Shown here: positions 60,166 to 63,548 of the stretch, piece by piece
How the letters are laid out: each line of letters opens with the position of its first letter
Numbering within the stretch: the stretch's first letter is position 1
Assembly (NCBI GenBank): GCA_009840545.1
Contig: VXNM01000010.1
Span: forward strand, 248,001 to 312,000
Source: Gammaproteobacteria bacterium
Lineage (GTDB): Bacteria; Pseudomonadota; Gammaproteobacteria; Pseudomonadales; Azotimanducaceae
DNA: 64,000 nucleotides
Direction of reading: 5' to 3'
Notes under the pieces: model-generated
What the model saw: only the letters and a program-made list of their open reading frames with translations
Databases searched by the model: none
What the model was told of the DNA's origin: nothing
Translations under genes and position numbers: made by a program

Positions 60166-61821
60166 ATGGCAACTATCAATGGTGCAGCGCTGATGGCTCG
60201 CAGCTTGAAAGAGCAAGGCGTCGACTACATGTTTGGAATCGTAGGTTTTCCGGTTCAAGGCGTCGCTTCAGCTGCGCAAGACGCTGGAATTGAATTCATT
60301 GGGATGCGCAACGAACAAGCAGCCAGCTATGCGGCACATGCCGCTGGCTACCTAACCGGACGTCCTCAGGCTTGTTTGACCGTTTCCGGTCCAGGAGTGA
60401 TTCACGCATTCGCGGGGCTCGCCAACGCACAGCAGAACTGCTGGCCCATGATTCTCATCGGCGGTGCTTCTCCGATCTACCAAAATGGAATGGGAGCATT
60501 TCAAGAAGAACGGCAGGTCGAACTAGCCACACCCTACTGCAAGTATGCACACGCCATTGAGCATACGAGTCGAATCCCCTTTTATGTAGCAGAAGCCGTT
60601 CGAAACTCCTTGTACGGTCGGCCTGGGGCAGCCTACCTGGACTTTCCGGACGACATCATTCGTGGAGAAGTGGATGAATCCGAGGTAGTCTCGGCGAACC
60701 GAGTGGGTGATCCGCCCCGTACACTTGCGGACCCCGAAGCAGTGGAAGAAGCTCTCTCGGTATTGGAGTCCGCTGAAAGGCCTTTGGTGATCGTCGGCAA
60801 GGGAATGGCATGGTCGCGAGCCGAAGACGAGGTTCGAGCGTTTATGGAACGCACTCAGCTTCCATTCCTTGCATCTCCGATGGGCAAGGGCATCCTTCCC
60901 GACGACGATCCCTTGTCCGTAGGAGCTGCACGAAGCACAGCACTACGAGAGGCTGATGTGGTGTTTCTCATGGGAGCACGCCTCAACTGGATTATGCACT
61001 TTGGGCTTCCTCCAAGGTTCTCCGAGAATGTTCGCGTAATTCAGCTGGACATTGCGCAGGAAGAGATCGGTCGAAACGTAGCTCCTGAAGTTGCCCTCGT
61101 TGGAGATGGAAAGGCCGTTACCCAGCAACTCAATACCGCTCTGACAAACCGACAGTGGTTCTATCCTGCCGAGACGGAGTGGAGAGCCACTCTGCAAGCC
61201 AAAGCAAGTGAAAACGCGGAAGCCGTAAAACCGATGATTGACGATGACTCGAGCCCGACGAACTACTACAGAGCGTTTCGAGACATCGAGGATTGGTTGC
61301 CGGATGATGCAATCATCATCGGAGAAGGTGCCAACACGATGGACATCGGCAGAACTCAAATGCTGAATCGCCGAGCACGGCATCGTCTAGACGCTGGAAC
61401 CTATGGAACCATGGGGGTCGGCTTGGGCTTCGCCATCGCAGCGGCCGTAACAAATCCGGACAAGCCCATCGTGTCGGTGCAAGGAGACTCTGCATTCGGA
61501 TTTTCGGGAATGGAACTCGAGACCATGGTTCGCTACAACTTGCCCGTAAAGCTCATTGTGTTGAACAACGGCGGTATTGGTGGGGGAGTTGGACCGTTAG
61601 AGAAGGGTCGTAGGGTTCCGCCCAACATCCTTACCTATGGTGCTAGATATGAAGGAATGCTGGAGGCACTTGGCGGAAAGGGAATGTATGTTTCCGACCC
61701 GGCAGACCTGAGGTCAGCTCTGGACGAAGTCATGGAGCATGACGGACCTGCAATGATCAACGTGCCCCTAAATCCGCGCGCTGGCCGAAAGCCTCAGAAG
61801 TTTGGATGGCTAACCACCTAA
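60166..61821 (+). CDS. Thiamine-diphosphate enzyme, 2-hydroxyacyl-CoA lyase/oxalyl-CoA decarboxylase-like
   Basis: The 551-residue protein has the three-domain ThDP layout. The activating Glu is in RNEQAASYAAHAAGYLTG near residue 49. A central Rossmann-like domain follows (RPLVIVGKGMAWSRAEDEV near residue 205). The cofactor motif GDSAFGFSGMELETMV near residue 445, with Asn-Asn after about 28 residues (LIVLNNGGIGGGVG), completes it. The sequence resembles oxalyl-CoA decarboxylases and 2-hydroxyacyl-CoA lyases more than acetolactate synthases. Expected chemistry is C-C cleavage of a 2-hydroxyacyl-CoA or oxalyl-CoA, releasing formyl-CoA. The VOC protein gene follows after 55 bp. Which substrate is used cannot be decided here. 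Confidence 0.88.
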   Translation: MATINGAALMARSLKEQGVDYMFGIVGFPVQGVASAAQDAGIEFIGMRNEQAASYAAHAAGYLTGRPQACLTVSGPGVIHAFAGLANAQQNCWPMILIGGASPIYQNGMGAFQEERQVELATPYCKYAHAIEHTSRIPFYVAEAVRNSLYGRPGAAYLDFPDDIIRGEVDESEVVSANRVGDPPRTLADPEAVEEALSVLESAERPLVIVGKGMAWSRAEDEVRAFMERTQLPFLASPMGKGILPDDDPLSVGAARSTALREADVVFLMGARLNWIMHFGLPPRFSENVRVIQLDIAQEEIGRNVAPEVALVGDGKAVTQQLNTALTNRQWFYPAETEWRATLQAKASENAEAVKPMIDDDSSPTNYYRAFRDIEDWLPDDAIIIGEGANTMDIGRTQMLNRRARHRLDAGTYGTMGVGLGFAIAAAVTNPDKPIVSVQGDSAFGFSGMELETMVRYNLPVKLIVLNNGGIGGGVGPLEKGRRVPPNILTYGARYEGMLEALGGKGMYVSDPADLRSALDEVMEHDGPAMINVPLNPRAGRKPQKFGWLTT

Positions 61822-61876: not shown

Positions 61877-62338
61877 GTGTCCGATACGAAATCGATAGGT
61901 CGAATGGACCATATTGGAATCGCCGTCAAGAGCATTGAGGAAGCGCGTAAGTTCTATGAGGGACAGCTTGGTGCCAAGCATGTTCGGACAAGCATGCATC
62001 ACACGGGCGAGTTCAAGTTGGGAATCTTCGATCTCGATGGATTTTGCATTGAGCTTCTTGAACCTGTCGATCCTGATGGATTTCTGGCGAAATTTATCGA
62101 GAAAAGAGGAGAGGGCGTACACCACATAACGCTGCAAACGCCCAATCTAGACGAACAAACTCAACGACTCGAAGAAAACGGTGTTCGAGTGGTCGACAAG
62201 AACTTGGATCCCGAAAGTGGCGGAGTCGATGCTTTCATTTCTCCAAAGAGTTCCCATGGAGTGCTCATTCAGCTCGGCGAAAACATCGGTCCACTCAATA
62301 CTCCACCCTATTGGGAATCGGAATCGAGCGAGGATTAG
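61877..62338 (+). CDS. VOC protein similar to methylmalonyl-CoA epimerase
   Basis: The 153-residue protein, starting at GTG, resembles methylmalonyl-CoA epimerase: RMDHIGIAVKSIEEARKFYE (metal His), CIELLEPVDPDGFLAKFIEK, GEGVHHITLQTPNLDEQTQR (second metal His) and PKSSHGVLIQLGE at the end. In epimerases that last segment is normally VLIEL, whose Glu is a metal ligand; here it is Gln. The protein may have weaker or changed activity, or may be another acyl-CoA lyase/isomerase. It follows the ThDP enzyme and is only five bases from the start of the glutaredoxin-DinB gene, so the three are probably cotranscribed. Confidence 0.8.
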   Translation: MSDTKSIGRMDHIGIAVKSIEEARKFYEGQLGAKHVRTSMHHTGEFKLGIFDLDGFCIELLEPVDPDGFLAKFIEKRGEGVHHITLQTPNLDEQTQRLEENGVRVVDKNLDPESGGVDAFISPKSSHGVLIQLGENIGPLNTPPYWESESSED

Positions 62339-62343
62339 TCGAC

Positions 62344-63102
62344 TTGACAAACGAAGCCGTTAACACATCCTGTGCAACCGTGTATTGGCAGCCTGGATGA
62401 ACAAGCTGCCTGCGAGTTAAGGAGTTTCTATCGGCTCGTGGAGTCGAGTACAAGTCGATCAACGTCTCAGAGCAATCCGAGGCGTGGAAAGACCTATCCC
62501 ATTTCGGCTTCAGTTCGGTGCCGGTTGTGTCTCTAGGAGAGAAGTCTGTATCAGGAGTGAATCTTGGCCAAGTCGCTCATCTCCTTGATCTCGAGTTCGA
62601 CCCAAACCCCCTACTTGACCCTTCGGAATTAATTGAGAGACTTGATCGGTTTCTGTCGGCCTTAGAGGTGGTCGCACCTCAAATCCCACCTAATGTTCTT
62701 AGCACGACATTGCCCGGACGTGATCGGACTGTGCTGGAGCTACTTCATCACACAGTTGAAGTTGCTCAGACGTCAACACGGATGAATGAAACTCTTGAAT
62801 TTGAACCAGCAAATGTAGATTCTGAATTCGACACACCTATTTCTCACGCCGACCTAGGAGGCATGATTAAACGCACTCGAGAAGAACTGAAATATCCGGG
62901 CAAGGACTGGCAATCAACGGTAAAGACCTACTACGGTCTGCAGACCAAGCATCAAATTCTTGAGAGATGTACATGGCATGTCGCACAGCATCTGCGACAA
63001 CTAGAACACTTCTGCTCCCAGTGGCAGCAAGAAATTCGAGGATGGCCCACAGCTGTCGACTACCGAGATCTCCCCCTACCCAATAGCATTTGGGATGACT
63101 GA
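62344..63102 (+). CDS. Glutaredoxin-DinB fusion with in-frame UGA at the first redox position (probable selenoprotein)
   Basis: The frame starts at TTG 62344, with AGGA overlapping the upstream stop, and runs 252 codons to TGA at 63100. One in-frame TGA occurs at 62398-62400, codon 19. Around it the protein reads VYWQPG-(TGA)-TSCLRVKEFL, so the TGA sits exactly where glutaredoxins have the first Cys of CxxC. FSSVPVVSLGEKSV (cis-Pro motif) then completes the thioredoxin fold. A linker leads to a DinB-like four-helix domain (about residues 85-240) with CTWHVAQHLRQLEHF. A SECIS-like hairpin follows the TGA. If decoded as selenocysteine, the product is a UxxC oxidoreductase fused to DinB. Otherwise it is a broken gene, and translation from the GTG at 62518 would give only the DinB part. 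Confidence 0.72.
62410..62441 (+). promoter_or_regulatory. Candidate bacterial SECIS hairpin
   Basis: Nine bases after the in-frame TGA, CTGCGAG (62410-62416) pairs with CTCGTGG (62435-62441) with two G-U pairs. Above an internal loop, AGG (62420-62422) pairs with TCT (62427-62429, one G-U), leaving the apical loop AGTT. The loop starts 23 bases after the TGA and contains GU, as bacterial SECIS elements require. The fold was drawn by eye without energy calculation. Confidence 0.5.
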
Positions 63103-63116
63103 AGCAGAGAAGGAAC

Positions 63117-63548
63117 GTGAAGGACGACCTTATCGACGCGAATACTCCAATAGGAGCTGTCAAGTTTGTCTTGCTTCATCACGATGGATGTGCTCGAGCC
63201 AAATTTCACTTTCGCATTGAATTGGATGGATCACGAACTCAATTGATTCCCACAAACAGCAAAGGTCAGCATCCCAATAGCCTTGGAATCGTAATTTCAG
63301 GTGTATTTGACGAGCTCACTCCGACTCCAGAACAGATGAACGGGCTGAAAGAGTTGCTCGTCGATCTAAAAATGCGTTATCCGGGTTTCGTGCTCGGAGC
63401 CCATCGCCAAGTCAGGGCGGACAGAACAACAACCTGTCCAGGTGCAAAATTTCCGATGGGAGAACTGTCCGCATGGGCGAAGGGAGAACTTCTGACCATT
63501 CGAAATGAACGCATCCAGGTGGACATAGAGTCCCAATATGGTCCATGA
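63117..63548 (+). CDS. N-acetylmuramoyl-L-alanine amidase (PGRP / amidase_2) family protein, no signal peptide
   Basis: The 143-residue protein, starting at GTG with AGGA seven bases upstream, has the amidase_2 zinc site: VLLHHDGCARAKFHFRIELD near residue 18 supplies the first His, GAHRQVRADRTTTCPGAKFP near residue 100 the second His and the Cys, as in T7 lysozyme. The middle HPNSLGIVISGVFDELTPT fits the strand that carries the substrate-binding residues. It should cleave the amide between muramic acid and L-Ala. There is no signal peptide, so it acts in the cytoplasm on recycled muropeptides, is exported otherwise, or has been recruited from phage. It lies 14 bp after the glutaredoxin-DinB gene. 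Confidence 0.8.
   Translation: MKDDLIDANTPIGAVKFVLLHHDGCARAKFHFRIELDGSRTQLIPTNSKGQHPNSLGIVISGVFDELTPTPEQMNGLKELLVDLKMRYPGFVLGAHRQVRADRTTTCPGAKFPMGELSAWAKGELLTIRNERIQVDIESQYGP

Follow-up and report, generated by a model that had tools for sequence, protein, structure and literature searches.

A predicted selenocysteine-containing glutaredoxin-DinB fusion protein in uncultured bacteria

A 252-codon reading frame (recoded codon counted) in a 64,000-nt stretch of gammaproteobacterial DNA, hereafter the window, is open except for one TGA codon, which falls at the catalytic position of a glutaredoxin-like redox motif. We asked whether this codon disrupts the gene or is read as selenocysteine (Sec), and what enzyme the complete frame would encode. 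The original prediction had proposed a UxxC redox domain attached to a DinB-like four-helix domain, translated from a TTG start behind a good Shine-Dalgarno sequence.

The reading frame and its two domains

The features of the gene that bear on this question are as follows.

62344-63102, + strand: predicted glutaredoxin-DinB selenoprotein gene, TTG start to TGA stop
62398-62400, + strand: UGA codon predicted to be read as Sec, residue 19, first position of UxxC, with Cys22 as partner; TGA, TGC or TGT in this column of homologues
62377-62547, + strand: Glutaredoxin domain, residues 12-68 (PF00462, 42.4 bits, cut-off 22.9)
62641-63003, + strand: DinB_2 domain, residues 100-220 (PF12867, 24.0 bits, cut-off 24.8; Foldseek matches to YfiT/DinB)
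62749-62751, 62977-62979 and 62989-62991, + strand: candidate metal ligands His136, His212 and His216 (His in 81 of 81 aligned rows)

When we re-read the frame, codon 19 was confirmed as its sole internal stop, in the context WQPG-TGA-TSC, and the expected ribosome-binding sequence was found as GAGGA at 62330-62334, identified by eye 9 nt 5' of the TTG. The TTG start region is kept in the nearest relative (L018, 74% identity), and a start at or beside the stop codon of the upstream VOC gene is possible in several other members of the genus; TTG 62311 and GTG 62380 are alternative in-frame starts in the window. The terminal TGA (63100-63102) looks like a true stop, because the reading frames of homologues stop at almost the same position, some of them with TAA or TAG. 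Comparison with the nearest relative indicated purifying selection on the frame 3' of the internal TGA (dN = 0.15; dS = 0.54).

The N-terminal half scores above the cut-off of the Pfam glutaredoxin model and carries the UxxC motif together with a conserved Pro60, which we take to be the cis-Pro of the glutaredoxin fold. The DinB_2 match in the window protein falls 0.8 bits below the cut-off; at E 0.01 or better, Glutaredoxin was found in 55 and DinB_2 in 52 of 55 aligned family members. Five residues (Cys22, Pro60, His136, His212 and His216) are invariant in 81 of 81 rows, with Arg208, Trp211, Gln215 and Gln219 conserved alongside the His triad. An AlphaFold2 model built from 55 rows, with Sec entered as Cys, had a mean pLDDT of 90.1 and a pTM of 0.86. 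Using Foldseek, we matched its redoxin half to the thioredoxin-like protein BC3987 and to NrdH (probability 1.00), and its C-terminal half to YfiT (1rxq) and the DinB structures 2p1a and 6iz2 (probability 1.00; E-values 0.004-0.01); no Foldseek match of either half had an E-value of 0.001 or lower. The DinB-like domain of the original prediction is thus upheld by profile matches, the His triad and the fold, and the C-terminal half is predicted from the model to be a DinB/YfiT (S-transferase-like) four-helix domain, in which the three invariant His probably bind a divalent metal.

Exchange of TGA and Cys codons and the selenocysteine machinery

To learn which codons homologues carry at this position, we compared the window protein with 97 related genomes, its own included. 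Full-length copies were found in 13 of them (own included), with TGA in the motif in all 13, and the remaining matches cover the redoxin part only. An unbiased scan of contigs from 84,980 species, in which the alignment started 3' of the Sec column, confirmed 228 relatives. We analysed the best 80 of these, 12 of which are the 12 relatives from the 97-genome search and were counted once. The codon in the Sec column of the best 80 of 228 relatives is TGA in 67, TGC in 10 and TGT in 3, so that the alignment suggested as a check returned either TGA or a Cys codon at every one of the 80 loci, with the frame otherwise intact. As this holds in 80 of 80 further loci and the downstream frame is under purifying selection, the internal TGA is not a chance occurrence.

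The 80 loci belong to 79 genomes, and a SelB match over the cut-off was present in 60 of the 66 genomes with TGA forms versus 3 of the 13 with Cys forms (Fisher p = 1.2e-6, a test that ignores relatedness). Corrected for relatedness, the comparison of Sec with SelB has only five independent pairs, one of them on supported branches, and therefore no power. For the 6 of 66 TGA genomes with no SelB over the cut-off, our guess is that incompleteness of metagenome-assembled genomes (MAGs) is the explanation. The Cys forms in SelB-positive genomes are L074, L098 and L104. Two SelB matches over the cut-off occur in the genome of L104 (G156) and in that of L059 (G111), and one genome (G169) holds two TGA copies of the family, L117 and L119. 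On the 81-row tree, the Sec/Cys label changes 5 times (best tree) compared with 12.3 times in shuffles, and at least once when only the starred branches are trusted.

Judged by record titles, the best 80 loci come from six phylum-level groups (Pseudomonadota, Actinomycetota, Acidobacteriota, Rokubacteria, Nitrospinota and SAR324), and single odd taxon records among them may be binning errors, since nearly all 80 loci are MAGs. Fusion relatives with the same TGA codon are present in many uncultured bacteria. In an evenly drawn sample of 398 genomes from the phylum, two matched at E 1e-20, both with TGA; with 2 of 398 genomes matching, the glutaredoxin-DinB family is rare. These two are the window's own genome and a 5.4 Mb one-contig genome that has SelB over the cut-off and, by eye, a hairpin of the same form as that described below.

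The genome from which the window derives (3.39 Mb, 14 contigs, 96.5% complete) was searched for selA, selB, selC and selD, as the original prediction had called for, and all four gave matches over their cut-offs. SelA scored 523 bits (cut-off 268) and SelB 388 bits (cut-off 242), with selB directly 3' of selA. The selC product, tRNA-Sec, scored 72.7 bits (cut-off 47) and was called tRNA-SeC with anticodon TCA by ARAGORN. The SelD-type protein scored 262 bits in the genome search and 259 bits as an ORF (cut-off 125); its gene lies ~3.6 kb from that of tRNA-Sec (locus L126, 4662-6689, - strand) and encodes a fusion to a pyridine-nucleotide oxidoreductase domain. From its sequence, this protein is likely, but not certain, to act as a selenophosphate synthetase, because its best NCBIfam model is TIGR04369, 'fusion_not_SelD', which outscores the selD model at 391, under its own cut-off of 700. 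Between tRNA-Sec and the SelD fusion (L126, 1049-4618) lie genes for a GCS2 (glutamate-cysteine ligase type 2) protein and an AstE/AspA-type protein, and these genes are perhaps part of a thiol-related cluster.

SECIS-like hairpins and the decoding of UGA

Beyond the points of the original prediction, support for Sec insertion came from a covarying SECIS-like hairpin 3' of the UGA.

62431-62447, + strand: SECIS-like hairpin with a 7-bp stem and a GUG loop at 62438-62440, UGA-to-loop spacing 37 nt; supported by covariation

The bacterial SECIS model, as set out in PMC13188914, has a loop of 3-9 nt, a stem of 4-16 bp, a G in loop positions 1-2, a spacing of 16-37 nt and a minimum free energy of -7.5 kcal/mol or lower. 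The window hairpin agrees with this description in its loop, its stem, the placement of the G and the spacing, 37 nt being the outer limit; its computed energy is -7.4 kcal/mol for the bare stem and -8.2 kcal/mol when flanking bases are included. With bare-stem energies, 45 of 68 Sec rows obey the published rule, compared with none of the 13 Cys rows and 74 of 1360 synonymous shuffles; the window is among the 23 Sec rows that fail on energy.

Excess synonymous conservation in the Sec genes peaks at codons 11-14 past the TGA (+0.63, +0.38, +0.63 and +0.34), with codon 2 also high (+0.38). The values for codons 11-14 in the Cys genes are +0.19, not computed, +0.08 and +0.21. Across the 55 Sec rows (53 distinct) that share the window's hairpin position (the far hairpin), 85.8% of cells are paired and 5 of 8 pairs have changed on both sides. 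The covariation score of 0.349, versus 0.197 for shuffled alignments, was equalled in 0 of 500 shuffles, and versions of the hairpin slid along the alignment scored 0.094 or less. For the 13 Cys rows, the same positions were paired in 47.1% of cells with a covariation score of 0.114, no better than shuffled.

A second Sec subgroup of 13 rows (7 distinct) has a GUU-loop hairpin 23 nt past the TGA, 14 nt nearer than the first. This near hairpin is paired in 87.5% of cells in its own 13 rows, mostly by invariant bases, and in 34.6% in the Cys rows. Within its own group (7 distinct rows of 13) its covariation is weak, a score as high being obtained in 66 of 500 shuffles, and it has no support in the remaining 55 Sec rows. 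When six core pairs were scored in the 68 Sec rows, 45 had only the far hairpin, 18 only the near one, 1 had both, 2 had the far hairpin minus one pair and 2 had neither, counts that lean towards two hairpins because the rows were grouped by eye from folds. As controls for these counts we used the Cys rows and slid versions of the hairpins; no full far or near hairpin was found in the 13 Cys rows. The two Sec rows with neither full hairpin, L067 and L093, may have a third, shifted one ~30-50 nt past the TGA.

Mean MFE z-scores of the Sec rows at three offsets past the TGA were weak (-0.28, -0.78 and -0.76; elsewhere in the Sec genes -0.03 to -0.19), those of the Cys rows at the same offsets were -0.14, -0.15 and +0.13, with -0.70 in one other stretch, and such values alone would not show a SECIS. 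The RNAalifold consensus of 13 rows held the loop hairpin and also a helix spanning the TGA, but the pairs of this helix were mostly invariant or changed on one side, so we did not take it as evidence.

These data bear on two ways in which the TGA could be something other than a Sec codon. A pseudogene, nonsense mutation or assembly error would place a stop at an ancestral Cys codon, and a Cys codon does stand there in 13 of 80 homologues. We nevertheless consider this scarcely credible, as TGA recurs at 67 of 80 loci in many separate assemblies, 13 relatives have no other internal stop (the second TGA of L025 is its terminal stop), purifying selection extends past the TGA and the hairpin covaries. 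Hardly better placed is the idea that UGA is read as Trp, Cys or another ordinary residue through a changed code or leaky termination. Nothing specific speaks for it, although an open frame would also be maintained by readthrough as such; the column otherwise holds only Cys codons and never TGG, TGA serves as the terminal stop in homologues including this gene, a tRNA-Sec with anticodon TCA is present, and only the Sec rows show the hairpin constraint. We therefore rejected pseudogene, assembly error and code reassignment on the spread of TGA, selection, the Cys-only alternatives and the hairpin. The UxxC position, the covarying hairpin and a genome with tRNA-Sec, SelA, SelB and a SelD-type protein together indicate that this UGA should be decoded by SelB and Sec-tRNA(Sec). 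The reading of the codon as Sec is thus supported by machinery, codon exchange, RNA structure and the placement of the gene next to selA at 10 of 80 loci, and we conclude that the gene very probably encodes a selenoprotein with Sec inserted at codon 19 and a predicted two-domain glutaredoxin-DinB architecture.

Relation to known families, proposed reaction and gene neighbourhood

Sec-glutaredoxin (Grx, PF00462; table of PMC13188914) resembles the window protein in having Sec first in the UxxC of a Grx domain; the table entry comprises the Grx domain only, whereas the window protein has 252 residues with DinB as its second half. The NrdH, GlrX_YruB and UXX-star families are likewise glutaredoxin-like and include some selenoproteins. 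Among NCBIfam models, the window protein matched glutaredoxin-type entries only, each below its cut-off (score/cut-off: TIGR02194, 50.5/85.75; TIGR02196, 47.1/88.55; NF041212, 36.7/66; NF041211, 27.6/100; NF045501, 23.7/325), and judged by these scores it is not a member of the NrdH, GlrX_YruB, UXX-star or HUGP-GUXX-star families. Among PHROGs profiles, it matched thioredoxin-type entries only.

The C-terminal half is most readily compared with B. subtilis BstA (YfiT, 1rxq), which it resembles in predicted fold and in a three-His set with HxxxH spacing. In PMC5815605, His67, His160 and His164 are the proposed metal ligands of BstA, and the spacing of window His212 and His216 equals that of BstA His160 and His164. 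Unlike BstA, the window protein is fused to a Sec redoxin, its genome encodes a glutathione synthetase and its DinB_2 score falls just below the cut-off. EgtB and an enzyme of the lincomycin pathway also join a DinB thiol-transfer domain to a second domain (PMC5815605), but in the window protein the second domain is an N-terminal Sec redoxin.

The DinB fusion is absent from the 119-family selenoprotein table of a 2026 review (PMC13188914), nor is DinB mentioned in its main text or in those of two marine surveys and the deep-Sep paper. Among the titles listed in a literature search that left out most subscription journals and all bioRxiv preprints, none concerned such a fusion. Short metagenomic reads of this family could have been counted as Grx or Grx-like in the 2005 and 2008 surveys, so that the Sec motif as such is perhaps not a novelty. 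Sec-glutaredoxin is already known; what appear to be new are the fusion, its Sec/Cys history and the two SECIS registers. The bacterial selenoproteome would thereby gain a domain architecture not listed in the 119-family table, and in annotations that take the TGA as a stop, the gene would appear in two pieces or be cut short. The natural occurrence of Sec and Cys versions of the same enzyme makes it possible to examine the advantage that selenium gives a thiol enzyme, and the two SECIS registers on a single protein offer a natural test of how far the hairpin can be moved and still be accepted by SelB.

Members of the DinB superfamily carry out metal-dependent transfer of low-molecular-weight thiols, according to PMC5815605 and PMC10950700. 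By analogy, the metal site of the DinB domain would activate a low-molecular-weight thiol and pass it to, or take it from, a substrate that is electrophilic or oxidised; the attached selenol-thiol redoxin, with the UGA-encoded residue at the catalytic position of its glutaredoxin/NrdH-like UxxC and Cys22 as the resolving residue, would then reduce the resulting mixed disulfide or selenylsulfide. We hold this sequence of steps tentatively, at somewhat less than an even chance. The thiol would most likely be glutathione, because the genome encodes the glutathione synthetase GshB (388.8 bits, cut-off 299), and we infer that the product would be a GSH-using transferase or reductase whose attached selenol redoxin handles the mixed disulfide. 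More speculative still is a broader proposal, that the family represents a bacterial enzyme type in which selenol redoxin and metal-dependent thiol transferase are permanently linked, so that a mixed disulfide or selenylsulfide arising at the DinB metal site would be resolved by the Sec of its own polypeptide. This proposal also takes in the two SECIS registers (37 and 23 nt) and would have the gene belong, in some lineages, to a selA-selB operon that serves selenium physiology.

Two other functions have to be weighed against thiol transfer. The protein could be a plain Sec-glutaredoxin, that is, a disulfide reductase in which DinB is a substrate adaptor or binding module and no thiol transferase. 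Sec, UxxC and the strong Pfam score all lie in the glutaredoxin half, and Sec-glutaredoxins are established (PMC13188914); against this, the metal-type His triad in 81 of 81 rows and the conserved Arg208, Trp211, Gln215 and Gln219 suggest an active metal site, and we regard the plain reductase as possible but doubtful. A role in selenium metabolism, such as reduction of selenite or seleno-diglutathione or the handing on of selenide for selenophosphate synthesis, would fit the loci in which the gene sits beside the Sec machinery: selA adjoins it in 10 of the best 80 loci, and in 9 of these 10 the fetched flanks also contain selB, in two orders (selA-fusion-selB in L060 and L063; fusion-selA(-selB) in the eight others). 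We consider such a role unlikely, because the flanks of the remaining 70 of 80 loci (up to 4 kb, some shortened by contig ends) contain neither selA nor selB, Cys forms occur in 10 genomes without SelB over the cut-off, and selAB often travels with a selenoprotein gene.

The genes on either side of the fusion gene are as follows.

60166-61821, + strand: thiamine pyrophosphate (TPP) enzyme, upstream (TPP_enzyme N, M and C; cluster of 10 loci plus the window)
61877-62338, + strand: VOC/glyoxalase-fold protein, upstream, 5 nt before the gene (PF13669, PF00903; cluster of 8 loci plus the window)
63117-63548, + strand: Amidase_2-like protein, downstream (PF01510, 31.8 bits, cut-off 26; cluster of 8 loci plus the window)

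No neighbour widely common across lineages was seen among the clusters and representatives examined, and Pfam searches on chosen representatives gave no clue to the substrate other than those from the selAB linkage and from the genus of the window. Within that genus, the gene order places the TPP enzyme and VOC genes on one side and the Amidase_2-like gene on the other. One genus relative (L047, 5087-6979) has genes for a PhyH dioxygenase and an SMP-30/gluconolactonase downstream of its Amidase_2-type gene, which suggests a catabolic cluster.
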